This document shows positions 25,529 to 39,581 of a stretch of DNA of 41,616 bases, piece by piece. The notes under the pieces are model-generated. The model did no database searches, was not told the DNA's origin, and saw only the letters and a program-made list of their open reading frames with translations. Made by a program: the position numbers and the translations under genes. Source of the DNA: Planctomycetaceae bacterium. Its GTDB lineage: Bacteria > Planctomycetota > Planctomycetia > Planctomycetales > Planctomycetaceae. How positions within the stretch are numbered: the stretch's first letter is position 1; each line of letters opens with the position of its first letter. The stretch spans positions 1-41,616 of the forward strand of contig JANQQW010000226.1 in assembly GCA_028284885.1 (NCBI GenBank), written 5' to 3'.

Positions 25529-26503
25529 TCAGGGCTGCTTCGGCAGCGGCCAGAGCTTCAACTCGTTGCCGCCGACCGAGGCGACGTGCCTGCCGCTCGG
25601 CAGGACGGCAAGGCCGTTGACGGCTCCCCGATGCGCTCGGATCGTCGCCGTCGTCTTGCCGGTTCCCACGTCCCAGAATCGAATCGTTCCGAACTCGTCG
25701 CCGGAGACGATCGTCTTGCCGTCCGGCGAGTAGGCGACCACGGTCACGTCGGCGTCGTGACCGGTGAGCGTCGAACGCACCTCGCCGGTCATCGCGTCGC
25801 GGAGAGCGAGCGTGTCGTCCCAGCTGCCGGAGACGAGGGTCTTGCCGTCCGGCGAGTAGGCAACACACGTGACCGCCTCGTCGTGCCCGCCCGGCGCGGC
25901 GATCTGTTCGCCGGTCGTCGTGTCCCAGATGGAGACGTTGTTGTCACCGTCGCCGGTCGCGACTCGCCTGCCGTCCGGCGAGAAGGCGAGGCAGGTGACG
26001 TCGTATTCGTTGTCCTGCCCGATCCGAACCCGGGTCTTGCCGGTCTTCGCGTCACGAATCCGCAGGGTGTCGTCGGCGCTGCCGGTGGCGATCCACTTGC
26101 CGTCCGGCAAGAAGGCGACGCACGTGATCGTCTCGCGGTGCCCGTCGAACGGCCGCGGCTTCTCGTCGTCGCCGAGACTCCGGACGACGAGGCCGCCGTC
26201 CCAACTGCCGACCGCGAGTTGCCTGCCGTCGTGCGAGAAGGCGAGGGCCGTCACGCTGGCGTCGAACGCCTTCCACTCGGCGGCCGGGTCGAGCTTCGGC
26301 GGCGTCCAGGTGCGGACAACACCGTCGTCGCCCCCCGTCGCGACCCGCTTCCCGTTCGGCGAGACGGCTAGCGCGTAGGCCCACCGTTTCGCGACCGACC
26401 GCGCCGCGAGCGGCCCGTCGAGCGGTGGCGGCTCGGTCGGGTCGTCCGCCCGGCCCGGCCATCCGCACAGCAGCAACAGGCAGGTGGCCGCGAACGTCCT
26501 CAC
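25529..26503 (-). CDS. Exported seven-bladed WD40 propeller
   Basis: 324 residues from a GTG that overlaps the stop of the DUF1552-C gene by four bases. The N-terminus (RTFAATCLLLLCGWPGRADD) is a signal peptide. Seven WD40-type repeats follow, each with a core like VTCVAYSPDGKTLVSGSWDD and most ending in WD, RD or a similar dipeptide, enough for one closed propeller. No enzymatic motif is present; a binding scaffold outside the cytoplasmic membrane is inferred. Coupled translation with DUF1552-C suggests it belongs to that module. Confidence 0.9.
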   Translation of the reverse strand: MRTFAATCLLLLCGWPGRADDPTEPPPLDGPLAARSVAKRWAYALAVSPNGKRVATGGDDGVVRTWTPPKLDPAAEWKAFDASVTALAFSHDGRQLAVGSWDGGLVVRSLGDDEKPRPFDGHRETITCVAFLPDGKWIATGSADDTLRIRDAKTGKTRVRIGQDNEYDVTCLAFSPDGRRVATGDGDNNVSIWDTTTGEQIAAPGGHDEAVTCVAYSPDGKTLVSGSWDDTLALRDAMTGEVRSTLTGHDADVTVVAYSPDGKTIVSGDEFGTIRFWDVGTGKTTATIRAHRGAVNGLAVLPSGRHVASVGGNELKLWPLPKQP

Positions 26504-27825
26504 GCGAGGATCTCGGACAGCGGGCCGGTGCTCTCCTTGAAGGAGTTCACCGGGCAGCCGAGCTGCTGGAGGATGGTGAGGTACAGGTCGGAGGCGGACT
26601 TCTCGTTCCCTTTCCACTTCACGTGCTGGCCGTGCTTCAGGCCGAGCTTGTTGCCGCCGGCGAGCAGCATGGGGAAGTTGGAGCCGGAGTGGCTGCTGAT
26701 CTGCGACCCGCCGAGCAGCAGGACGGTGTGGTCGAGCAGCGTGCCGCCGTGCGCCTCGATGGCGTGGAGCTTGTCCATCAGCCGGGCGAGCTTCGCACAG
26801 AACATGCGGTCGCGAAGGCCCATGACCATCACGTCCTTGTTGTCGGCCCCGCGGTTGCCGGTCCCCTTGTGGTGCACGTCGTGGGCTCCACGCAGCGGGG
26901 CGCCGGTCTCCTCCGACCAGCCCTTGTAGTCCTCGTAGTTCGGGCCTCCCTCGCCGCCGAGCGAGTGCGTGACGACGCGGGTCATGTCGGTCTGGAAGGC
27001 GAGGGCGATCAGGTCCATCATCAACTCGATGTGTTCCTGCATGCTGTTCTTCCCCTCGGGGTCGAGCCGCACGCCCTTCTCGTTGAACTGGGGCCGGCCG
27101 CGGTCGAGGATCTCCTCGCGGTCGTTCATCCGCTGCTCGACCTCGCGGATGGAGGTGAGGTACTGGTCGATGCGGAGCCGGTCGGCGTGGCCGAGGCGGG
27201 TCTGCAGGCTCTTCACGTCGCCGACGGCCGTGTCGAGCACGCTGCGGTCGAGGGCGATGCGGGCCTTGGCGGCCTTCAGCTGCGACTTGTCGGCCGGCGG
27301 GAAGAGTCGCTCGAACACCTCGCGGTAGTTCGCGGTCGCCGGGATGTCGGCCCCGAGGGCGTTGCGAGACAGGGTCGTCGTCCCCACGCCGCTTCCGAAC
27401 GAGAGGGCGAGCGACGGGACGTACGTCGGGCCGATGTGCTTGGCGGCCACCTGGTCCATCGAGACCGTGTTCGTGTGGGCGCCCGGCGTCATGTTGATGT
27501 TGTGGCCGGTGAGCCAGTTGTACGGGTGCACGTGCCCGCTGATGCGACCCTGGATGTGCGACAGGCCGCTGAGGACCGAGAACCGGTCGCGGTGGTGGGC
27601 GAGTGGCTCGTGCGACTTCGAGATCGTGTAGTCACTGCCGGTGCCCTCCGGGTACCAGCTGTAGTGGTTGATGCCGCCCGGGATGTAGAAGCAGGCGAGC
27701 CGCGAGGGCTCGGTCTGGCCGGTGGCGGCGAAGACGGTCCGCCCGCCCATCGCCTCCAGCCACGGCAGGGCGAGTGTCGCGCCGAAGCCACGGAGAATCG
27801 TGCGTCGCGAGATCGGGTTGGCCAT
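26500..27825 (-). CDS. Tat-exported DUF1552 protein (copy C)
   Basis: 441 residues. Twin-arginine signal ISRRTILRGFGATLALPWLE (R7-R8). DUF1552 features: LACFYIPGGINHYSWYPEG, FSVLSGLSHIQGRISGHV, the central coiled region (SIREVEQRMNDREEIL), TVLLLGGSQISSHSGSNFPM and the standard C-terminus STGPLSEILA. The family is found mainly in planctomycetes and verrucomicrobia, next to DUF1592 cytochrome-type genes, and has no known reaction. It starts 27 bases after the DUF1592-C stop and overlaps the WD40 gene by four bases. Confidence 0.92.
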   Translation of the reverse strand: MANPISRRTILRGFGATLALPWLEAMGGRTVFAATGQTEPSRLACFYIPGGINHYSWYPEGTGSDYTISKSHEPLAHHRDRFSVLSGLSHIQGRISGHVHPYNWLTGHNINMTPGAHTNTVSMDQVAAKHIGPTYVPSLALSFGSGVGTTTLSRNALGADIPATANYREVFERLFPPADKSQLKAAKARIALDRSVLDTAVGDVKSLQTRLGHADRLRIDQYLTSIREVEQRMNDREEILDRGRPQFNEKGVRLDPEGKNSMQEHIELMMDLIALAFQTDMTRVVTHSLGGEGGPNYEDYKGWSEETGAPLRGAHDVHHKGTGNRGADNKDVMVMGLRDRMFCAKLARLMDKLHAIEAHGGTLLDHTVLLLGGSQISSHSGSNFPMLLAGGNKLGLKHGQHVKWKGNEKSASDLYLTILQQLGCPVNSFKESTGPLSEILA

Positions 27826-27852
27826 GTTCGGTCTCTCGGTGAGAGGAGGGAC

Positions 27853-30372
27853 TCAGGTTTCGAGGAACGCCCGGGACCGCACGAACGCTTTCAGGACGTC
27901 ACGCAGCGGAAACCCCTTCGGCTCCAGTTCGTCGAGGGTGGCCCGAATCTCGACGGCGTCGAGCACGTCGGGCTGGCGACCGGCCCCGTAGACCACGAGG
28001 TTCTTCATGATGCCACGAATCAGGTCGCGTTGATACTTCTGTACGAGCAGTTTCTTGAACGAGGCGTAGTCGGTGAACTCCTCGCCGCGGGGCATGCGGC
28101 CGGTGGCGTCGACCGGGCGGGTCTCGCCGCGGCCGTTCCACTGGATCTTGCCGTCCAGTTCGGACCGGCTGTACTTCTCGTGTTCGACGTCCCGCCAGCG
28201 GCCGCTCAAGTCGAAGTTCTGGAAGGCGAAGCCGAGAGGGTCCATCTTCACGTGGCAGACGGCGCAGTTCGGCTCCTCCTGGTGGATCGCGAGGATCTCC
28301 TTGAACGACTTGCCCTGGTTAGAGCCGTCGTTCGGGTCGAGTTCGGGCACCTCGAGCGGCGGCGGGGGGGGCGGGTCGTCGACGACGTGCCGGAGGGCCC
28401 ACGCGCCGCGGTAGGTGACCCAGTTGTCGCCCATCCAGCAGAGCATCGACTGGATGCCGGCGTGGCCGAGGAAGCCGCCGCCGCGGGGGTCGTCCTTCCG
28501 CAGTTTCACCCTCCGCAGTTCGCTCCCCTCCACCTCGTACCCGTAGAACGCGCCGAGGCTGTCGTTCATCATCGTCCAGTCGCCGTCGACGAGCTCCCGC
28601 GACTTCGCGTTCTGGCGGAAGCACTCGGCGACGTACTCGACCGTCTCGGCCCGCATCGACTCCTTCAGGTACCGGCCGAACTGGAAATTCTGCTGGGAGA
28701 TGTGCTGCATGGCGATCGTGATGGGCTGCTCCATCTCCAGCCACTGCACGACGAACGGCTCGAAGAACGCGTCGCTCCGCGGGTCGGCGAGCAGCCGGTC
28801 GACCTGGTCGCCCAGCACCTTCTCGTCCCGCAGTCTGCCGGCGGCGGCGAGTTCGCGAAGTTCGGCGTCGGGCGGGCCGCCGGTCAGCATGAAGGCGAGC
28901 CGCGACGCGACGGCGTGTTGGGCGATCGACTCGTCCGGGTCGGCCGCCGACACCATGTACCGGAACGGCCCGCTCATCAGGACGGAGTGGAACGACGCCC
29001 GCAACGCCTCGTCGAACGTGAAGCCGTCGCCGCGGAGGCGGGTGTAGAGGTCGAGGAACCGCTTCTTCTCGCCGCTCCTCACGGGTCGTCGCCACGCCCG
29101 TTCCATCCACAGCGACAGCAGCCGGTCGGCGCTCTCGGTCGAGTCGGTGATCTCGCCGACGTCGGCCTCCCACTCGGCCGGCGGCCACGTCGCCACGTAG
29201 TCCCCCTCGATCTCGACCGTCTGCAGGACGACCCACGGGACCGGCTGTTCCTCCGGTTGCCGGAGCTTCTTGCGGTCGTACTTCGGGCGGTAGACGCCCG
29301 GGCCGTCGGGCAGGTCGGCGTCCTTGGAGGTCTTGTCCTCGTTCTCGAAGCCGTCGATCTCGTACGGCAGCTCGACCCGGCTGCTGAGCTCGATCTTCAC
29401 CCCCTTGGAGCCGATCGGCAGGTCGTCGACCTGCACCTCGTAGACGAGTCTTTCGGGGGACTCCAGTGTGCCGGTGATCTCGCGGTACTCGAGCGTGCGG
29501 CCGGCGACCTTCACGCAGAGCCGCGGTGGCGGGGTGTCGTCGAAGAACGTCCGGCCGGCGACCTCGACGGCGAAGCGGACCACGCCGCGACCGTTCTCGG
29601 GACCGGGCACGTAGAACTGCTGAGCGTCGCGGTCGCGGAGCCACTTCGGGTCGCAGTACAGGCCCTCGCCGAGCCGCCCGGTGCCTCGCAGCTTCGCCTG
29701 GACCCCCTGCTCCTTCCACGGGTCGAACGCCTTGCGGACGTCCTTCGTCTCCTTGAAATCGACGACGAAGGTCTGCTCGGAGGCCGGTTCGAGGAAGCGG
29801 ACGCCGTCGACCGCGCGGCGGGTGACGAGCAGGATGCGGTCGACCGAGTCGGCGGCGTCCTGCAGGGCCGACGCCCCGGTGTCGAAGCCGGCGAGCTTGC
29901 CGTCACCGGGCAGAGCGGCGGCGTAGTCGATCTCGAGCCCCGTGACGTCCCGTAGCGCGGCCCCCAGTTCTCGGCGATTCAAACGACGCGTTCCTGCGGT
30001 CCCCGCCTTTGCCCGATGCGCCTCGGCCGCCTCCTCGATCCAGCCGAGCAGCCGCTTCGTCTCGTCGGCGTCCGGCCGCGGCTCGCCTTTCGGGGGCATC
30101 TCGCCGTCGGAGACGCGTTCGTGGATCATGGCCCACAGCCGCGACCGCTCGGCGTTGAAGCCGGTCAACCCGTCGAGCCGCAGGTTCGCCTGTTGGTCGT
30201 CCGGGCCGTGGCAGGCGACGCAGTGAGTCTTCAGGAACTCACGGGCCGACCTCTCGAACCCCGGATCCGCCGCCTCGCTGCCGACGCAGAGGGACGAAAC
30301 GACCCCGACCACCGCGACGGCGAGGCCGAGGCACGTCCCGAACGAGGTGCTGCGGGCCGGAGCGTTGTTCAT
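27853..30372 (-). CDS. DUF1592 cytochrome-type protein (copy C)
   Basis: 839 residues with an N-terminal signal or anchor (about 12-35). Domain order: N-terminal cytochrome c-like domain with CVACH (C51, C54, H55), DUF1587 (TRRLNRRELGAALRDVTGLE), a beta-rich domain of roughly 190 residues, DUF1595, DUF1592 (ASRLAFMLTGGPPDAELREL), DUF1588 with a second CAVCH (C703, C706, H707) followed by DPLGFAFQNFD, and DUF1585 to the end. Two covalently bound haems outside the cytoplasmic membrane are predicted. ATG at 30372 is preferred because the upstream in-frame sequence contains no signal. It has its own promoter near 30500 and is followed by DUF1552-C. Confidence 0.93.
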   Translation of the reverse strand: MNNAPARSTSFGTCLGLAVAVVGVVSSLCVGSEAADPGFERSAREFLKTHCVACHGPDDQQANLRLDGLTGFNAERSRLWAMIHERVSDGEMPPKGEPRPDADETKRLLGWIEEAAEAHRAKAGTAGTRRLNRRELGAALRDVTGLEIDYAAALPGDGKLAGFDTGASALQDAADSVDRILLVTRRAVDGVRFLEPASEQTFVVDFKETKDVRKAFDPWKEQGVQAKLRGTGRLGEGLYCDPKWLRDRDAQQFYVPGPENGRGVVRFAVEVAGRTFFDDTPPPRLCVKVAGRTLEYREITGTLESPERLVYEVQVDDLPIGSKGVKIELSSRVELPYEIDGFENEDKTSKDADLPDGPGVYRPKYDRKKLRQPEEQPVPWVVLQTVEIEGDYVATWPPAEWEADVGEITDSTESADRLLSLWMERAWRRPVRSGEKKRFLDLYTRLRGDGFTFDEALRASFHSVLMSGPFRYMVSAADPDESIAQHAVASRLAFMLTGGPPDAELRELAAAGRLRDEKVLGDQVDRLLADPRSDAFFEPFVVQWLEMEQPITIAMQHISQQNFQFGRYLKESMRAETVEYVAECFRQNAKSRELVDGDWTMMNDSLGAFYGYEVEGSELRRVKLRKDDPRGGGFLGHAGIQSMLCWMGDNWVTYRGAWALRHVVDDPPPPPPLEVPELDPNDGSNQGKSFKEILAIHQEEPNCAVCHVKMDPLGFAFQNFDLSGRWRDVEHEKYSRSELDGKIQWNGRGETRPVDATGRMPRGEEFTDYASFKKLLVQKYQRDLIRGIMKNLVVYGAGRQPDVLDAVEIRATLDELEPKGFPLRDVLKAFVRSRAFLET

Positions 30373-30740
30373 AAGCCGCTCGTGGTAAACGTGTTTAAGC
30401 TGTTGGGTCTGCACGGGTCGCTGGGCCAGAGACGGCAACTCGTCTTCGGAGAATTGACCACGGGACCCGGATCCGTTTCGCTCGATCTTCTCCGATCATA
30501 CCAAGAGAGACGGCAGACATGTTGCGTCTGCCTGCAGAACGTGCCCGAGAGTCGTTCTCCGTTCGGCCTGCGAACGGCTGCTCGGAAATCGTGCTCGCGA
30601 CGCTCGAGCTCTCGCCTGCCGTCGGAGTCCGGGGCGTCGCGACCGGCTCTTGGCCCGATCCGGGCTCGGTGGAGCGTCTCGAACGTCGTCTGGCCGTCGA
30701 GTCTCCGTACGACGACCACCACAGGTTCGCAAGCTGCGTT
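30373..30740. other. Intergenic region splitting the cytochrome-module array
   Basis: 368 bases without a credible gene, between DUF1552-B (upstream) and DUF1592-C (downstream) on the minus strand. It is the largest gap in the array and AT-richer than its surroundings near the promoter. It contains the promoter and palindrome at 30495-30532. I see no terminator hairpin for DUF1552-B. The open frames that cross it in several directions have no family features. Confidence 0.6.
30495..30532 (-). promoter_or_regulatory. Extended -10 promoter with palindromic site for DUF1592-C
   Basis: On the minus strand TGGTATGAT (plus-strand 30495-30503) is an extended -10 element. The -35 position (about 30518-30523) has no consensus hexamer but is covered by an interrupted palindrome: GGCAGAC (30512-30518), seven bases, GTCTGCC (30526-30532). 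A promoter with extended -10, poor -35 and a palindrome centred at -35 suggests control by a DNA-binding regulator. The predicted leader is about 115 bases. Confidence 0.5.
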
Positions 30741-32315
30741 CTAGCCGTTCAGCGTTCCGGGAGCCTTGCCGAACAGGGACTCGATTTTCGTCACCTTGCG
30801 AATCACCTTCCGGTCGCCGGTGTCGCCCGTGCCGGTGAGGGTGACGGCCGTGCCGCAGTGGTACGCGAGGTTGAACCGGTGGAAGTCGCCGAACCCGACC
30901 TCCACCCGCACGGGCGGCCGGTCGTCCACGTCGACGAGGAAGACCCGCGCCTCGTCGAGGTCGTCCGACATGCGGATGCGGCCGCGGACCGTGATCACGT
31001 TCCCCTCGACCTTGACCCAGCTCTCGAACGCCGGCTCGCGGTACGGTTCGTAGTCCGATCCGTCGAGACCGGGCAGCGGCTCCTTGGACCGGGCGAACGA
31101 GTCGAGGTCGATACCGAACATCTGCAGCAGCGACAGGTGCAGCCGGCCGAGTTCCTGGTTCTCGGCGTAGCGGACGTACCGGCCGGTCTTCAGGTGGTCC
31201 TTGCCGCCGGCGAGCACGACGGGAATGCGGGTGACCGTGTGGTTGTCGCTGTGCCCCATGCCGCTGCCGTACAGGACGACGGTGTTGTCGAGGAGCGTGC
31301 GGTCGCCCTCGCGACGGGACTTCAGCCGTGTCAGCAGCGAGTCGAACTTCTCCATGTGCCACAGGCTGATCTTCAACAACGACTCGAGGTTGGACCGGGA
31401 GAAGTTGCGGAAGAAGTGCGACAGGTAGTGGTGCTGCTCCCGGATGCCGAGGAAGTCGAAGATCATCCGGCTGTTGCTGTTGCCCAGCATGTAGGTGATG
31501 CAGCGGGTCTGGTCGGTCCAGAGGGCGAGTTCGACCAGTTCGAGCATTGCCTCGACCTGGTCGTCCAGCGTGCCGCCGGAGCCGGGTCGCTCGAATGTGG
31601 CGAGGTCGTGCCTGGGCGGGGTGGCCGCGATGTTGGCGAGCCGCTTCTCCGACGTGCGGACGACCTCGAGGTACTCGTCCAGCGTGCGTCGGTCCTCGCT
31701 TCCGGCGCGGCGGGCGAGCGACTTCGCGTCGTCGCGGACCCGGTCGAGCACGCTCGTCAGCTCGGCGCGTCGGCGGGGGTCGGCGTGGGGGCTGCGGAAC
31801 AGGCGGTCGAAGATCAACTGCGGGTCGCTCTCCCGCGGGATCGGTGCGCCCGTCGCGTCGTACGAGATGTAGCTGCAGCCGACCTGATTCGGGAACAGCC
31901 CCTCCGTCGTCAGCTCCAGCGAGCGGTGCGGCGTGTCGCCCTGGATGCGGTCGGCGATCAACTGGTCCGTCGACGCGGACCGCTTGTTCTCGTGGTGCCC
32001 CGACAGGAACCGCCGCGTGCTGCTCGCGTGCGACGAGAACCCCCAGTCGCCCATGTTGTCGAGGATCAGCACGTCGTCCCGGTGCCGTTCGAACGGCTTC
32101 ATCAGCGGCGACATGCGGAAGTCGTTCTCGGTCCCGCCGCTGACGTTCCAGGACGGCGGGTGCACGCCGTTCGGCTTGAACAACGTGACGAACCGCAGCG
32201 GCGGCCGCTCCGCCTCGGCCGCCCGGGCCGGGCGTTCCATCAGGTTCAGCAGCGGCAACGGAAGCAGGGCCCCCGTACCGCGGAGGAACGCTCGACGCTG
32301 GAGACGAAGTGGCAC
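30741..32315 (-). CDS. Tat-exported DUF1552 protein with C-terminal beta-domain extension (copy B)
   Basis: 524 residues, GTG start with GAGGAG inside the end of the upstream gene. Twin-arginine signal LQRRAFLRGTG (R7-R8). The DUF1552 core is complete: VTLFKPNGVHPPSW, VLILDNMGDWGFSSH, YLEVVRTSEKRLANI, TVVLYGSGMGHSDNHT, and it reaches the point where copies A and C stop (SKEPLPGLDG, equivalent to STGPLTEVLG). It then continues for 105 residues (420-524) in a beta-rich, charged domain with VEGNVITVRGRIRM and GTAVTLTGTG. This extra domain is not part of DUF1552. It starts three bases after DUF1592-B. Confidence 0.92.
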   Translation of the reverse strand: MPLRLQRRAFLRGTGALLPLPLLNLMERPARAAEAERPPLRFVTLFKPNGVHPPSWNVSGGTENDFRMSPLMKPFERHRDDVLILDNMGDWGFSSHASSTRRFLSGHHENKRSASTDQLIADRIQGDTPHRSLELTTEGLFPNQVGCSYISYDATGAPIPRESDPQLIFDRLFRSPHADPRRRAELTSVLDRVRDDAKSLARRAGSEDRRTLDEYLEVVRTSEKRLANIAATPPRHDLATFERPGSGGTLDDQVEAMLELVELALWTDQTRCITYMLGNSNSRMIFDFLGIREQHHYLSHFFRNFSRSNLESLLKISLWHMEKFDSLLTRLKSRREGDRTLLDNTVVLYGSGMGHSDNHTVTRIPVVLAGGKDHLKTGRYVRYAENQELGRLHLSLLQMFGIDLDSFARSKEPLPGLDGSDYEPYREPAFESWVKVEGNVITVRGRIRMSDDLDEARVFLVDVDDRPPVRVEVGFGDFHRFNLAYHCGTAVTLTGTGDTGDRKVIRKVTKIESLFGKAPGTLNG

Positions 32316-32318
32316 GGC

Positions 32319-34193
32319 TTACTCCTCGGAGAGAATCGTCTCTTGGAACGGCACGCTCTCGGCGACCGCGACGAACAGGTCCCGCCACGTTCCGTTCGAC
32401 TCGTTCAGGTCCTTCACGATCGCCTCGACGGTCGGGCGGTCGTGCAGTTCGAGCCGCCGGCAGAGGGCGTAGGACAAGGTTCGCCGGACGACGTTGCGAA
32501 TCACGTCCTCGCGGCGGGTCGTGACGAGGATCCTCTTCAGCCCGCGGGCGTCGTCGAACCGTTCGCCGGTCGGCAGCCGGCCGGTCGTGTCGTTCTGCGA
32601 GCCGCGCAGGAACTCGCCGCGGCCGCCGTAGGACTCCATTGCGAAACCGAGCGGATCGATGCGGTCGTGGCAGACGGCGCAGCTCGGCTTCGAACGATGC
32701 AGCTCGAACCGTTCCCGGAACGTCAGCTTCTTGCCGGGCGAACTGCCGGGCACCTGGCCGACGTCGGGCGGCGGCTCGGGCAGTTCGTCGCCCAGCACCC
32801 GCTCCAGAATCCACACTCCCCGCTGGATGGGCCCCTTGTTCATCGCCAGTACGCCCGGCATCGTCAGCAGCCCGCCCCGTTCGGTCGTCGCCTCGAGCAC
32901 GATCCGCTGGTTTGGCACCGCTTCGACCTCGATGCCCTTCTGCTTGCGGTAGGGCTTCATCCGCTTGGCGTCGGCCCCGTAGTGGCCGCGGGTGTGCGGG
33001 TTGACGAACGCGACGTTCGCGTCGACGAGTTCGAGCAGCGGCCGGTTCTCGGTGAAGAGGTGGTGCAGGAAGTCGACCGGCTGCGACTTGTACGCCAGCA
33101 TCTGCGGCGGGTTGTTCGAGACGTGTTCGATCTCGTCCAAGCTGAACCACTCGACACCGAGGTGCTCGGCGAGGTTGCGGGCCCGCGGGTCGGTCAGCAT
33201 CCGGTCGATCTCCGCCCGCAGAACCTCGGGCTTCCCGAGTTCGCCGGACGCGGCCCGGTCGAGAAGTCGCTCGTCCGGCATGTCGGACCACAGGAAGTAG
33301 GAGAGCCGTTCCGCGAGCTCGTACCGGTCGACCGGTTGCCGTGCCCCCGGCTCGCCCTCGACGAGCAGCCCGCGGTAGACGAACTTCGACGAGACGAGCA
33401 ACGCCTTCAGTTCGAGTCGCAGGGCCGCCTCGAGCGCTTCGCCCTGCTTCCCGTCGATCCGGGCGACGAGTCGGTCGAATTCCTCGTGCGGCACGGGACG
33501 CCGTCGCGTCCGCCGGGCGAACGTCCGAAGGATGCGGGCCGCGGCGGCCGAGTCGAGCCCGTCGTCGAGCGACCCGGCGAGGGCCTCCAGCGCGTCGCGA
33601 CGGCGGGGCGAGAAGAGCTCCTCGACCCCCGCATGGGCCAAGTGGTTGTACTGGTCCCACACGACCGTCGTCAGCGGGTTCGCGTGCGTGTCGTTCTTGA
33701 AGCCGCTGCGGCCCGGCGGGTCGGTCGGCATCAGCTTCACGACCAGCGACCGTTCCGCCAGTGTCTGCTCGGCCTCGATGACGGCGACCTCGAGGTCGAA
33801 ACCGAGCACGGAAGCCAGCGTGTTCCGGTACTCGTGCACGGCGAGTCGCCGGGGGCGGTGCACGGCCGGTCGCGGTTCGACCGACTCGACGAGGTCCCGG
33901 TACCAGCCGACGATCCGCTTCCGCTCCGCGTCGGTTGGCTGAGGCTCGTCCGCCGGGGGCATCGCCCGGGACTCGAGTCGGTCGACGACGGACTCCCACG
34001 TCTCCCACGCCGAGTCCACTCGGTCGAGTTCGAGGACGGCGGCGAGATCGACGCCGCCGTTCGCGTCCTTCCCCTCGTGGCAGGCGACGCAGTACTTCCT
34101 CACCAGCGGCGCGACCTCGCGGAACGCGTCGTCGGCACGGCCCGTTCCGACGAAGACGACCGCGAGCAGCAGCAGGCAGGAGAGGACTCGCAC
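32319..34193 (-). CDS. Short DUF1592 cytochrome-type protein (copy B)
   Basis: 624 residues, GTG start. Signal peptide (1-20, GTGRA-DD). N-terminal cytochrome-like domain with CVACH (C35, C38, H39), a DUF1587-like segment (PRRLAVHEYRNTLASVLGFD), DUF1592 (AERLSYFLWSDMPDERLLDR), DUF1588 with the second CAVCH (C505, C508, H509) and DPLGFAMESYG, then DUF1585 (NVVRRTLSYALCRRLEL). It lacks the beta-rich domain of about 180 residues that copies A and C carry between DUF1587 and DUF1595, which accounts for its shorter length. It begins four bases after the DUF1552-A stop and is followed three bases later by DUF1552-B. Confidence 0.93.
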   Translation of the reverse strand: MRVLSCLLLLAVVFVGTGRADDAFREVAPLVRKYCVACHEGKDANGGVDLAAVLELDRVDSAWETWESVVDRLESRAMPPADEPQPTDAERKRIVGWYRDLVESVEPRPAVHRPRRLAVHEYRNTLASVLGFDLEVAVIEAEQTLAERSLVVKLMPTDPPGRSGFKNDTHANPLTTVVWDQYNHLAHAGVEELFSPRRRDALEALAGSLDDGLDSAAAARILRTFARRTRRRPVPHEEFDRLVARIDGKQGEALEAALRLELKALLVSSKFVYRGLLVEGEPGARQPVDRYELAERLSYFLWSDMPDERLLDRAASGELGKPEVLRAEIDRMLTDPRARNLAEHLGVEWFSLDEIEHVSNNPPQMLAYKSQPVDFLHHLFTENRPLLELVDANVAFVNPHTRGHYGADAKRMKPYRKQKGIEVEAVPNQRIVLEATTERGGLLTMPGVLAMNKGPIQRGVWILERVLGDELPEPPPDVGQVPGSSPGKKLTFRERFELHRSKPSCAVCHDRIDPLGFAMESYGGRGEFLRGSQNDTTGRLPTGERFDDARGLKRILVTTRREDVIRNVVRRTLSYALCRRLELHDRPTVEAIVKDLNESNGTWRDLFVAVAESVPFQETILSEE

Positions 34194-34197
34194 GCCA

Positions 34198-35541
34198 CTA
34201 CCCGAGGACTTCGGTCAGCGGGCCGGTGCTGTCCGCGAAGCGGTCGGTCCCGACGCCGACGGCGTTCATTGCCGTCAGCAGCAGGTTCGACATCGGCACG
34301 TCCGCGCCGAACCGACGGTACTCGCCGTGCTTCAGGCCGAGTTGGCTGCCGCCGGCGAGGACGAGCGGGTAGTTCGTGTTGTTGTGCGTCTGGCTGTTGC
34401 TGCTGCCGTAGACGACGACCGTGCTGTCGAGCAGCGAGCCGTGCGGTTCCTCTGCGGCGTCGAGTCGCGCGAGGAACCCGGCCAGCCGTTCGGCCATGAA
34501 CCGGTCCCACCGCCCCAGCTTCTCGGCCCCCTCCGGCTTGTTCCAGCCGTGGGCCAGCGAGTGCAGCGAGCCCTTGAATCCCTCGAGCTGCGGGAACTTG
34601 CCCGCCTTCGAGGAGGCGTCCGCCATGTTCGTCACCTGGTAGGTGGCGACGCGGGTCGAGTCCGTACGGAGGGCGAGGTAGACGAGATCGTACATCGTCT
34701 CGATGAACCGTTTCGGGGCCTCGTCGTCGGCGTCGAGGTGCAGCAGTTCGCGGTCCTCGTCGCGAAGCTCGGGGGCCGGGACCTCCAGCCAGTGCTGCGA
34801 CCGCTCGACGCGTTGCTCGATCTCGCGGACGGAGGCGAGGTACTCGTCGAACTTCTCGCGGTCGACGCTGCCGAGCCGCCGCTTCAGGTCGCGGGAGTCC
34901 TCGAGCACGCGGTCCAGCATGCTGGAGGCACTCGCCAGCCGTCGCCGCTTCGCGATCACGTCGTCGTCACCGACGCCGAAGAAGCGGTCGAAGACCCGCC
35001 GCGGCTCGTTGAGGGCCGGGATCGGACGACCCTTGGCGTCGTAGGAGAGCGTGCTCGACCGGGTCGGCTCGCCGACGCCGCCGTCGGTCGAGAGGACGAG
35101 GGACGGGAACCGCGTCCGCCCGCCGACGTGCTGGGCGACGACCTGGTCGGCCGAGACGGTGTTCCGCAGGAACTTGCTCGTCAGCAGGGCCCCGGTGAGG
35201 AACGTGTCACCCGTGTCGTGCCCGCCCATCTTCCGGCCGTTCGGGTGGGACAGCCCGCCCAGGATCGACAGTTTCTCGCGGTGCGGTTCGAGCGGTTCGA
35301 GGCTCTTGTTGTGCGTGTAGTCCCGGCCCTCGCCTTCGGGGAACCAGCTCCACTCCGCCTGCTCGCTCTCCTTCTTCGGCAGCCCGACGCCGAAGCCGAA
35401 GTACATCGAACAGAACCGGCGGGGGCGGTCCGTCGCGGGGGTCTCGCCACGGGCCATGCACTCCAGGAACGGCAGCCCCAACGAGGCCCCGGTGCCGAGG
35501 AGGAACTTGCGGCGGTCGAGATGCCAGGACTTCTGGGCCAT
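34198..35541 (-). CDS. Tat-exported DUF1552 protein (copy A)
   Basis: 447 residues. Twin-arginine signal HLDRRKFLLGTGASLGLPFL (R10-R11). Core motifs: FCSMYFGFGVGLPKKESEQ, LSILGGLSHPNGRKMGGHD, EYLASVREIEQRVERSQ, TVVVYGSSNSQTHNNTNYPL and the terminal STGPLTEVLG. ATG at 35541 was chosen because it gives the usual distance to the RR motif. It starts 22 bases after the DUF1592-A stop and ends four bases before DUF1592-B, so the A and B modules probably share a transcript. Confidence 0.92.
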   Translation of the reverse strand: MAQKSWHLDRRKFLLGTGASLGLPFLECMARGETPATDRPRRFCSMYFGFGVGLPKKESEQAEWSWFPEGEGRDYTHNKSLEPLEPHREKLSILGGLSHPNGRKMGGHDTGDTFLTGALLTSKFLRNTVSADQVVAQHVGGRTRFPSLVLSTDGGVGEPTRSSTLSYDAKGRPIPALNEPRRVFDRFFGVGDDDVIAKRRRLASASSMLDRVLEDSRDLKRRLGSVDREKFDEYLASVREIEQRVERSQHWLEVPAPELRDEDRELLHLDADDEAPKRFIETMYDLVYLALRTDSTRVATYQVTNMADASSKAGKFPQLEGFKGSLHSLAHGWNKPEGAEKLGRWDRFMAERLAGFLARLDAAEEPHGSLLDSTVVVYGSSNSQTHNNTNYPLVLAGGSQLGLKHGEYRRFGADVPMSNLLLTAMNAVGVGTDRFADSTGPLTEVLG

Positions 35542-35563
35542 GGGAGAACTCGTACGGGAGGGG

Positions 35564-37966
35564 CTACTTGGTACGGAACGGCTCGCTCGCGACGATCGTA
35601 CGCACGAGGTCACGGAGCCGACAGTCGTTCGCGACGAACTCGTCGGAGAGTCGGTCGACGGTGGTCAGGTCGGTCAGTTCGAGACGCCGGCCGAGGGCGT
35701 AGGTCAGCATCCGCTCGACGAGCGTCCGGGCGAAGTCGTCGCGACGTTCGGTCAGCAGGTGCTCGCGGAGCGCGTCGGCCCCGTCGATCTCGGTGCCGTC
35801 GGGCAGCACGTCGGACGCGTCGACCGGGCTGGTCGTCGTCTTGCGTCCCTCGCGGCGGCGGACCTCGTCTCGCCAGAGGCCGACGGCGTCGAAGTGTTCG
35901 AGGGCGATGCCCCACGGGTCGATGCCGTCGTGGCAGCTCGCACAGGCCGGCGTGTTGCGGTGAATCTCGAGCTGCTCGCGGACCGAGAGCTTCAGGAACT
36001 TCGGGTCGGCCTCGTCGAGCGTCGGCACGTTCGGCGGCGGCGGCGCGGGGGGATCGCCCAGAAGCCGGTCGCGAATCCAGACGGCCCGGCGGACCGGATG
36101 CGAGTCCCCGCCCGTCGAGTTGGCCAGCAACATTGACGCGTGGCCCAGCACGCCACCGCGGCGCCGGTCGGCCGGCAGCGACACGCGGCGGAACGTCTCG
36201 CCGCGGACTCCCTCGACCCCGTAGTGCTTCGCGAGCCGCTCGTTCAGCATCGTGAAGTCCGAGTCCAGCAGCCGCAGGGCGCTGAGGTCGTGCTCCAGCA
36301 GTTCGCCGAAGAACCGCTGCGTCTCCGACTGCATGTCGGTCTTAAGCCGGTTGTCGAAGTCCGGGTGGAACTCCGGGTTCACGGCGACCCGGTCGACGAC
36401 TTCGAGCCCCAGCCACTGCGACGTGAACTGGTCGACGAGGCGTTGCGATCGCGGGTCGGCGAGCAGGCGGTCGACCTCGGCCGCGAGCGTCTTCGGTTCG
36501 TGCAGCGTCCCGTCCGCGGCCAGCCTCCGTAGCCGTTCGTCCGGCATGGTGCTCCACAGGAAGTACGACAGCCGAGACGCGAGTTCCCAGTCGTCGGCCG
36601 GCCGCTTCTCGTCGCCGGACGGCTCGACGAGGTACAGGAACTCCGGCCGGATCAGTACGTAGGCGAGCGTCTCGCGGATCGCGTCCTCGAACGCCGGGAA
36701 CGTCGGCCGGACCTCGGTGTAGAAGTCGACGAGTTTCGTGATCTCCTCGTCGGTTGCCGGTCGCCGGTACGCTCGGCTCGCGAACCGACGCAGCACCTCG
36801 GTGACGTACGCCTTCTCGTCCGACTCGCGAAGCGGGGAGTCGAACAGTATGCGGCGGTGCGCGGCGGGCGGCCACGCGTCGAAGACCGGGGCGTGGAACT
36901 CGACCGAGTGGACGACCAGCGTCGAGCGGTCGGGTTCGGGCGGGTAGAACGTCCCCTTCCGCTTGTCCCCCTTCTCGCGCTTCTCGGCCTTGGGCCGTGG
37001 CGAGCCGTCGTCCTCGGCGTTCCGCAGCCGCACGACGAGCCCCGGGAACTTGCCCTGTCCGCGGACGGGGAGCGGGAAGTCCTCCAGCCGGCCGCGGAAC
37101 TCGAGCGTCCGTTCCTCGGGCGTGGTGAACTCGACGACGTCGATCTCGTCGAACAGGATCTTCGTGTCCGGCCGGTAGCCGAGCGAGACCTCGAGCAGCG
37201 GGTACGGGGCGTCCGGCACGAGTTCGGCGGAGACGCGGGCCCGGATCAGGAAGTCGCCCCGTTCGGGGTACTCCTTCTTCATGGTCGCGAGGAACCGCTG
37301 CATGCGTTGCAGCCGGTTGGAGCGTTCGACCTTGCCGAGCCAGTTGCCGACGTTGCTCTCGGTGAACTCGTAGTCGAACTGCTTGGGGGCCGGTCCGCTG
37401 ACGATCACCCGGTCCAGAGCACGGCGGGCGGTCTCCAGATAGGCCTCCAGTTGCAGTGACGACATTCGCAGGGCGTTGCCGTCGTTGGTGAAGCCGTCTT
37501 CGGAGGGCGAGTCGGGCGGCAGGTCGCGGACGAAGTTCATGTCGATGCCGAGCAGGTCGGACATCGTGTTCTGGTACTCGACCCGGTTGAGCCGGCGGAG
37601 CACCACGCGTCCGTTCGTTCGCCGCCCCGCCTCGACGGCCTTCTCGATCGCGTTCGAGACCCAGGTCACGACGGTTCGACGTTCGGCCTCGGTGAGCGGC
37701 GTCTCGCCCTCGGGCGGCATCTCCCCCTTCTGCAGGGCGTGCAGCACCTCGTGCCACGTCTCCGCGTCCGCCCGGTCGTCGACGAGGTTCGTCGAGAGCG
37801 TGTCGATCCGGACCCGCCCCTCCTGCGTGTCCGGCCCGTGGCAGGCGACGCACCTCGCCTTCAGGACGGGCAGCACGTCGCGCTCGAAGTCCACCGGTTC
37901 GGCGGCCACGAGCAGTCCCGGCGAGAGACTCGCCGTCAACAGGAGGAGGAGTTGGAGAGCCTTCAT
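35564..37966 (-). CDS. DUF1592 cytochrome-type protein (copy A)
   Basis: 800 residues. Signal peptide (1-22). Cytochrome-like domain with CVACH (C39, C42, H43), MPPEGETPLTEAE, DUF1587 (LRRLNRVEYQNTMSDLLGID), a beta-rich domain (about 190-330) possibly carbohydrate-binding, DUF1595 and DUF1592 (ASRLSYFLWSTMPDERLRRL), DUF1588 with CASCH (C675, C678, H679) and DPWGIALEHFD, and DUF1585 (MLTYALGRRLEL). The ATG at 37966 directly precedes the signal peptide; a TTG at 37987 is an alternative. A promoter is predicted in the 91-base gap upstream. Confidence 0.94.
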   Translation of the reverse strand: MKALQLLLLLTASLSPGLLVAAEPVDFERDVLPVLKARCVACHGPDTQEGRVRIDTLSTNLVDDRADAETWHEVLHALQKGEMPPEGETPLTEAERRTVVTWVSNAIEKAVEAGRRTNGRVVLRRLNRVEYQNTMSDLLGIDMNFVRDLPPDSPSEDGFTNDGNALRMSSLQLEAYLETARRALDRVIVSGPAPKQFDYEFTESNVGNWLGKVERSNRLQRMQRFLATMKKEYPERGDFLIRARVSAELVPDAPYPLLEVSLGYRPDTKILFDEIDVVEFTTPEERTLEFRGRLEDFPLPVRGQGKFPGLVVRLRNAEDDGSPRPKAEKREKGDKRKGTFYPPEPDRSTLVVHSVEFHAPVFDAWPPAAHRRILFDSPLRESDEKAYVTEVLRRFASRAYRRPATDEEITKLVDFYTEVRPTFPAFEDAIRETLAYVLIRPEFLYLVEPSGDEKRPADDWELASRLSYFLWSTMPDERLRRLAADGTLHEPKTLAAEVDRLLADPRSQRLVDQFTSQWLGLEVVDRVAVNPEFHPDFDNRLKTDMQSETQRFFGELLEHDLSALRLLDSDFTMLNERLAKHYGVEGVRGETFRRVSLPADRRRGGVLGHASMLLANSTGGDSHPVRRAVWIRDRLLGDPPAPPPPNVPTLDEADPKFLKLSVREQLEIHRNTPACASCHDGIDPWGIALEHFDAVGLWRDEVRRREGRKTTTSPVDASDVLPDGTEIDGADALREHLLTERRDDFARTLVERMLTYALGRRLELTDLTTVDRLSDEFVANDCRLRDLVRTIVASEPFRTK

Positions 37967-38001
37967 GTCGTCCGACGGTGGGATCAACGGGTGGGAACTC
38001 G

Positions 38002-38057: not shown

Positions 38058-39581
38058 CTACGCGAGAATCTCCTCGAGCACGCGGCCCTCTTCGGTCGGG
38101 CCGATGAGGCGTTGCCGGAGGCCTTGGTAGTCGACGTGGAAGCGGTGCGGGTCGAGGCCGACGAGGTGCAGGACGGTCGCCTGCAGGTCGCGGACGGAGA
38201 CCGGGTCCTCGGTGACGTAGTAGCCGATGTCGTCGGTCGTCCCGAGCGAACCGGGCGAGACGCCGCCGCCGGCCATCCACGTGGTGAACGCGTGCGGATG
38301 GTGGTCGCGGCCGACGAAGCCCTTCTTGATCTCCTTGTTCACGTTGTTCTGCATCATCGGCGTGCGGCCGAACTCGCCCCCCCAGACGACGAGCGTCTCC
38401 TCCAGCAGGCCGCGGCGGTCGAGGTCGGTCAGCAGCCCGGCGATCGCCCGGTCGATCTGCTGGCACTTGATCGGCAGCGTCTCGTCGATCGACTCGCCCG
38501 GCGACGAGCCGTGGTGGTCCCAGCCCCAGTCGTACAACTGGACGAATCGCACGCCGCTCTCGACGAGCCTTCGGGCCAGCAGGCAGTTGTTCGCGAAGGT
38601 CGGGTCGTCTCCCTTGTACAGCACCCGCGGGTCGGCGGCGGACTCGGCGGCGGAGACGTGCCCCGGCCGGGCCCCGTACAGGTCCAGCGTCTCCTTCGTC
38701 TCGCGGCGGATGTCCATCACCTCGGGGACGGACGCCTGCATGCGGAACGCGAGTTCGTACTGGGCGATACGGGTCAGCGTCTCCGGGTCGCCCGTCTCCT
38801 CGTGCTGCATCGTGTTCAGGTCGCGGACGGCGTCCAGCGTCTTCCGACGTCCGCGGCGACCGAGGCCGTCTGGGTCCGAGAGGTACAGGATCGGGTCCCC
38901 GCCGTCGGTCCGGCACTGCACGCCTTGGTACACGGTCGGCAGGAAGCCCGAGCCCCACAGCGACTTCCCGGCACTGGGTGTCTTCCCGCCGGAGGCGAGC
39001 ACCACGAAGCCCGGCAGGTCGTCCGCCTCGCTCCCGAGGCCGTAGGTGATCCACGACCCCATGGCCGGCCGGCCGAGCAGCGGGCTACCGGTGTGCAGCA
39101 GCAGTTGGGCCGGGGCGTGGTTGAACTGTTCCGTCGTCACCGACCGGATCACGCGGAGCTTGTCGGCGACGCCGGCGAGGTGCGGCAGCAACTCGCTCAT
39201 CCACTGGCCGGTCTCCCCGTGCCGGGCGAACGCGAACTGCCCGCCCAGCATCTTCGGCACCCCTTTGATGAAGGCGAACCGCTTCCCCTCGAGGTACTCC
39301 TTCGGGCACTCCTGGCCGTGGAACTTCGCCAACTCCGGCTTGTGCTCGAACAACTCCAACTGCGACGGCGACCCGGCCATGTGCAGGTAGATGACCGACT
39401 TCGCCTTCGCCGGCAGCCGGACGTCGGGCGACGCGGCTCCCTGCACCGGTTTCGGATCCGCCGCGAGACCGCGGTCGCCCAGCAGCGAGTGCACGGCCAT
39501 CGCACCGAGCCCGAGGCCGCCGGTCCCGAGGAGGTGGCGGCGCGTCACGTTCCGAAGGTCGTCGAGCGGGTTCGGGTTCAC
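38058..39581 (-). CDS. Tat-exported DUF1501 protein
   Basis: 507 residues from a GTG overlapping the upstream DUF1553 gene stop by four bases (GTGA). Twin-arginine signal VTRRHLLGTGGLGLGAMAV (R14-R15). DUF1501 motifs: SVIYLHMAGSPSQLELFEHK, VRFVQLYDWGWDHHG, LVVWGGEFGRTPMMQNN and GRDHHPHAFTTWMAGGG. This longer subtype is the regular partner of DUF1549/DUF1553 proteins. Fold related to the alkaline phosphatase superfamily; substrate unknown. The overlap makes translational coupling with its partner very likely. Confidence 0.94.
   Translation of the reverse strand: MNPNPLDDLRNVTRRHLLGTGGLGLGAMAVHSLLGDRGLAADPKPVQGAASPDVRLPAKAKSVIYLHMAGSPSQLELFEHKPELAKFHGQECPKEYLEGKRFAFIKGVPKMLGGQFAFARHGETGQWMSELLPHLAGVADKLRVIRSVTTEQFNHAPAQLLLHTGSPLLGRPAMGSWITYGLGSEADDLPGFVVLASGGKTPSAGKSLWGSGFLPTVYQGVQCRTDGGDPILYLSDPDGLGRRGRRKTLDAVRDLNTMQHEETGDPETLTRIAQYELAFRMQASVPEVMDIRRETKETLDLYGARPGHVSAAESAADPRVLYKGDDPTFANNCLLARRLVESGVRFVQLYDWGWDHHGSSPGESIDETLPIKCQQIDRAIAGLLTDLDRRGLLEETLVVWGGEFGRTPMMQNNVNKEIKKGFVGRDHHPHAFTTWMAGGGVSPGSLGTTDDIGYYVTEDPVSVRDLQATVLHLVGLDPHRFHVDYQGLRQRLIGPTEEGRVLEEILA

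Follow-up and report, generated by a model that had tools for sequence, protein, structure and literature searches.

Introduction

The protein analysed here belongs to the DUF1552/HXXSHH family (PF07586), one member of which, RB9955, is tabulated as a secreted DUF1552 protein in the excerpted text of PMC2754498. According to the searched parts of PMC5615132, the genes for PSCyt2 and PSCyt3 usually adjoin genes of two unknown families, and what the PSCyt domain architectures do is described as wholly unknown; the term DUF1552 is absent from the main text as searched.

Here we compare with these systems a DUF1552 protein, copy B, encoded in a window (the whole stretch of DNA analysed) of 41,616 nucleotides from a Planctomycetaceae bacterium. 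Copy B shares with the family the full core match, an adjoining PSCyt/PSD cytochrome gene, and the RR motif, but it has an additional 105-residue C-terminal OB-like domain (the tail), present on 1 of the 37 matches of its genome. No description of such a domain was found in titles and abstract openings of the searched literature on HXXSHH, DUF1501, PSCyt/DUF1592/DUF1588/DUF1553, or OB-fold plus sulfatase.

Results

Copy B is an in-frame fusion within a tandem array

The minus strand carries, at 26500-37987, a tandem array of three cytochrome (PSCyt/PSD)-DUF1552 pairs (A, B, and C), and a DUF1501 match lies upstream of the three pairs at about 38064-39404. The features are as follows, all on the minus strand.

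30741..32315, minus: DUF1552-B gene, encoding 524 aa from a GTG start; identity to close core orthologues within the family 69-79%
30744..31058, minus: C-terminal extension of B, residues 420-524, OB-like domain
30777..31019, minus: predicted OB barrel of B, residues 433-513, strand one through final strand
31344..32195, minus: PF07586 (DUF1552/HXXSHH) match in B, residues 41-324
32277..32297, minus: RRAFLRG of B, presumed twin-arginine (Tat-type) motif
32319..34193, minus: cytB, 624 aa, PSCyt1-DUF1587-1595-1592-1588-1585, insert absent (29 residues between anchors)
34198..35613, minus: DUF1552-A, tail absent
35564..37987, minus: cytA, 807 aa, upstream of A, insert present (204 residues between anchors)
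26500..27825, minus: DUF1552-C, tail absent
27853..30438, minus: cytC, upstream of C, insert present (229 residues between anchors), assigned with our own profiles and not by Pfam scan

Three bases separate the stop codon of the upstream cytB from gene B, a single uninterrupted frame of 524 codons whose first stop is that at its 30741 end. The PF07586 match (E 2.4e-68, 231 bits against a curated cut-off of 30) makes copy B a DUF1552 protein. Where A ends in STGPLTEVLG and C in STGPLSEILA, B has the counterpart SKEPLPGLDG followed by 105 further residues, so that alignment with A and C agrees with the first-pass annotation, which had B overrunning both ends by this length. The annotation had also called the extension a real fusion with no frame change or stop, and the one open frame, together with orthologues in-frame across two phyla, upholds this: the tail of copy B is a real in-frame fusion.

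The model of full-length B was of modest confidence (pLDDT 68.9). All 30 Foldseek matches of the core at E <=0.001 were of the alkaline phosphatase/sulfatase type, with Z up to 16.9 against sulfatases and phosphodiesterases, and on this modest model the core is predicted to share the fold of the alkaline phosphatase/sulfatase superfamily. H296, H300, and H359 were invariant in six aligned DUF1552 proteins; the usual sulfatase metal motifs were not evident by eye. The sequence RRAFLRG, which we take to be a twin-arginine (Tat-type) motif, has both arginines invariant across 52 aligned proteins.

The tail marks a DUF1552 subfamily present in two phyla

Most DUF1552 proteins lack the tail, which in the source genome is present on one of 37 PF07586 matches; a tail search of that genome returned the window copy and two chance-level matches only (E 0.1 and 0.4). 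Among 30 DUF1552 loci read, 28 stop no more than 15 residues past the family end; the other two are B and L128, a partial match too incomplete for its end to be assessed. Likewise, the family end was complete in 41 of 44 tail-less DUF1552 frames, all 41 stopping within 19 residues past it. A tail that is a general DUF1552 feature is rejected by these counts.

Family-wide, the tail was found in 21 of 170 genomes. In a phylum sample of 392 genomes, with up to 11 candidates per genome scored, nine had a tail match, and in seven of these it was a tail-bearing DUF1552 protein. The other two, a small protein in G353 (E 1.2e-4) and a probably non-coding frame in G321 (E 1.2e-3), were unconvincing as cases of the tail alone or fused elsewhere, which the first reading had proposed to look for, and on this sample we reject the idea of a common stand-alone domain.

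A scan of contigs yielded 75 stretches and 62 confirmed loci, of which, by record title, 19 are from Planctomycetota, 42 from Verrucomicrobiota, and one (L067) is without phylum; two isolates contribute two loci apiece. Because it was seeded by a single peptide pattern, the scan is biased to the closer of the two tail types described below. The protein is whole (>=515 aa) in 53 loci, cut near contig ends in seven (at or near the 5' end in L016, L043, L053, L061, L062, and L067; off the 3' end in L026), and a remnant in two. The remnants, L072:4486-5346 and L073:5887-6321, retain only the C-terminal portion of a B-type gene. Among the loci is the chromosome record of Planctomycetes bacterium SV_7m_r (L034), which has two matches, a stronger one (E 1.4e-42) and a weaker one (E 1.0e-23). 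To judge from these sequences, the tail is not peculiar to B and marks a DUF1552 subfamily spanning two phyla, a presence that means old age or transfer.

Proteins with either tail type form one clade

Tails of the close type are 51-73% identical to that of B, and those of the distant type (L011, L094-L099) 18-28%; L166-L168 fall with the distant type in the tree. Comparison of B-type with L011-type tails by hhalign gave 96.8%, against 1.0% for a reversed-column control, indicating that the two types are kin.

A core-only search of the 170 family genomes, with up to 10 candidates per genome scored, found orthologues at 69-79% in 21 genomes, all 21 of which also had the tail, core and tail being on separate contigs in two. 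The next tier consisted of nine places at 37-41% identity, corresponding to the distant tail type, and at lower scores came DUF1552 proteins at 33-42%; nine of these were fetched (L153-L161), none with a tail.

Tail-bearing cores were monophyletic in a careful 70-row tree (100/100), which included the window core and excluded four long-branch tail-less rows, and in a quick 73-row tree (SH-aLRT 99), made from 73 of 113 different cores without the window's own. Several long tail-less branches were unsurely placed in both. The tail label needs one change on the tree, and the simplest history is a single fusion that predates the split of the two tail types.

The tail is conserved and most likely an OB fold

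A 59-tail alignment comprised copy B plus 58 of the 62 confirmed loci, including the remnant L072; L026 and L073 (too short), L070 (X), and L057 (duplicate tail) were left out. Of 117 columns, 26 were invariant, grouped in GRxRMSDxLDEA and FxDFHxxNxxYHxG. Invariant tail residues in a 52-row alignment include W433, G445, R446, R448, M449, S450, D451, L453, D454, F475, D477, F478, H479, N482, Y485, H486, G488, and G495, and when both tail types were aligned (15 tails), invariance was confined to L414, G416, W433, G445, G488, and G495. Pairs drawn from 54 whole proteins were on average 75% identical in the core and 62% in the tail. For 100 pairs whose cores were more than 85% identical, mean pN/pS was 0.13 for the tail and 0.08 for the core, these values being uncorrected and some pairs near saturation of synonymous sites. 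The ratios indicate purifying selection on the tail, a little more relaxed than on the core, and they reject, together with conservation across two phyla, a chance or wrong reading frame.

A scan of copy B against Pfam and NCBIfam gave no family match in the tail at E <=1. AlphaFold2, run on residues 411-524 with 59 sequences, produced a confident model (pLDDT 87.6, pTM 0.75), which rejects a disordered segment. With residue 411 as position 1, the model has strands E23-27, E30-39, E48-53, and E56-62, then helices H65-70 and H73-76, and then strands E80-88 and E94-103. An OB fold is a barrel of five strands in which a helix links strand 3 to strand 4, and the strand-helix order of the tail fits this definition, while the PDB matches are individually weak (E 7e-3, Z 7.4). 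Foldseek gave E 7.2e-3 at top and nothing below 0.001 (best 50 of 710 at E <=10), and among the 50 matches listed VIA-align reached Z 7.4, the tool's trust level starting at 8. Neighbours among these include RPA, SSB, PriB, AspRS, IF1, and YgiW, and we take the listed PDB rows of both tools to be OB-fold-containing proteins. Since the rows agree and the strand-helix order fits, an OB fold is by far the likeliest for the modelled tail. The alternating beta strands named in the first-pass annotation coincide with the model, and of the two folds it had offered, OB or beta-sandwich, strand-helix order and PDB neighbours clearly favour the first over the second.

The second Foldseek row was YgiW (BOF, PF04076; PDB 1nnx; E 1.1e-2, probability 1.00). 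YgiW/BOF is a small OB domain located outside the cytoplasm; unlike it, the tail is fused here onto another protein. BOF membership is rejected, as PF04076 was absent from the 59 tails at E <=10, and it had no match in 59 related genomes. PF01336, the tRNA_anti-codon OB family, had no significant match (two of 59 tails, E 0.1 at best), and matches to PF00993 (20 of 59 members, best E 0.01), to six further Pfam families (one or two tail members each), and to PF03767 in L165 (E 3e-4, below the family cut-off) were put down to chance. Searching PDB sequences gave E 0.063 at best with the tail profile and 0.49 at best with the full profile.

Small secreted OB-like planctomycete proteins with weak DUF5818 similarity (L222, L224-L238) resemble the tail in strand pattern but differ in standing alone and having an apparent signal peptide, judged by eye. 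Against a mixed tail profile, hhalign gave them 44% probability (E 2.3e-4), with controls (20 shuffled, one reversed) at or below 1.1%; the value was 2.9% with close tails and 14.2% with distant tails. With scores divided in this way, they are possible distant kin of the tail. Proteins of this type (L222:1706-2011, G353) occurred in 12 of 294 phylum genomes searched.

Tail-bearing proteins are paired with a short cytochrome

Tail-bearing DUF1552 genes are steadily paired with a short cytochrome of planctomycete type. The number of residues between two anchor models of our own was 15-51 in all 59 tail-bearing pairs (50 and 9 in two sets), against 155-523 in tail-less pairs other than the 3 of 27 that were equally short (L179, L190, and L208). 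Cytochromes of the short class are without an insert of about 200 aa, whose site in cytB lies between DUF1587 and DUF1595. The 27 tail-less pairs include the second pair of L217; L183 and L188, being the same gene, contribute a single pair, and the L185 cytochrome was assigned to the DUF1552 gene on its other side, both being tail-less, so that the count is unaffected. With no whole cytochrome past the filters, 22 tail-less and 12 tail-bearing loci were uncounted, as were the tail-bearing L216 and L219; among the uncounted tail-less loci, L195 had 35 residues between partial anchors and others far more.

As the 59 tail-bearing pairs are one clade, the association reflects few independent events. 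A short cytochrome does not require the tail, because L208 (the same gene as L160), tail-less and near the tail clade in the tree, has one; a strict trade-off between tail and insert is weakened by the three tail-less pairs with a short cytochrome.

In the close type, a cytB-like gene immediately precedes the tail-bearing gene in the 49 loci that extend far enough to include a whole cytochrome, the window included. Gene order varies in the distant type, with DUF1552 ahead of the cytochrome in L210-L215 and behind it in L218-L220. Extra cytochrome/DUF1552 frames lie up to 6 kb away in some close-type loci; L058 has an A-like pair, and further pairs were found in L217 and beside L221, one in each case. 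No third neighbour gene common to all loci was seen, and the largest neighbour cluster resembles frames antisense to the pair. One single-linkage cluster of neighbour frames covers 26 loci (L022, L025, L030, L034, and L041 among them); its longest member reads as a sulfatase, and at least seven of its frames lie on the opposite strand, 9 bases past the tail-bearing frame.

Discussion

We read copy B as a hydrolase-like protein that is exported and bears an OB binding module for use with its cytochrome partner, a reading to which we give a probability of roughly 0.45 and in which the binding role is what we infer. An ancestor that had a twin-arginine signal, and a core resembling the alkaline phosphatase superfamily, would have gained one C-terminal OB-fold domain, which may act as a binding module outside the cytoplasm. 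The module would most likely tether the DUF1552 protein to the partner cytochrome, or the two of them to a common ligand, and might stand in for the insert of about 200 aa in the cytochromes of most tail-less DUF1552 proteins. Against docking, the tail evolves faster than the core (62% versus 75% identity), as a fixed docking surface need not.

A less probable alternative, though the strongest of those considered, is that the OB domain binds glycans or anions and so delivers the hydrolase-like core to its substrate, in the style of a carbohydrate-binding module. The R, D, H, N, and Y residues conserved in the tail would suit it, as would the export-type signal and the sulfatase-superfamily-like core; yet no Pfam family passes its cut-off in the tails, and 26 of 117 invariant columns over two phyla is more uniform than we would expect of such a module. 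In the consulted portion of PMC5615132, carbohydrate-binding modules occur in PSCyt genes, with sulfatase genes nearby, which also favours it.

It is unlikely that the tail is instead a structural cap packed on the DUF1552 core, where it would shape the active site and have no separate partner. Tail and core were seen apart only in frames cut by contig ends, in the two remnants, and in the two weak non-DUF1552 matches, and many sulfatase alignments of the full model extend into the tail; several NPP-type structures, however, align over about 36-421 without it, though others reach 519-523, and the tail search showed B to be the one tail-bearing protein of the genome's 37 DUF1552 matches. Nucleic-acid binding, suggested by RPA, SSB, PriB, and tRNA synthetases among the neighbours of the tail and by the weak PF01336 matches, is very improbable: the protein has an export-type signal, and OB folds bind many ligands besides nucleic acids.

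Returning to the preferred reading of a binding module used with the cytochrome, its boldest form, in which an uncatalogued secreted OB domain defines the two-phylum subfamily and the binding module has shifted from the cytochrome, as the insert, to the DUF1552 protein, is doubtful. Cytochrome/DUF1552 pairs are abundant, and the 37 DUF1552 matches of this genome form a large paralogous set. A conserved extra domain on one subfamily offers a handle on this set, as it is small, well modelled, and could be produced alone for testing of partners.
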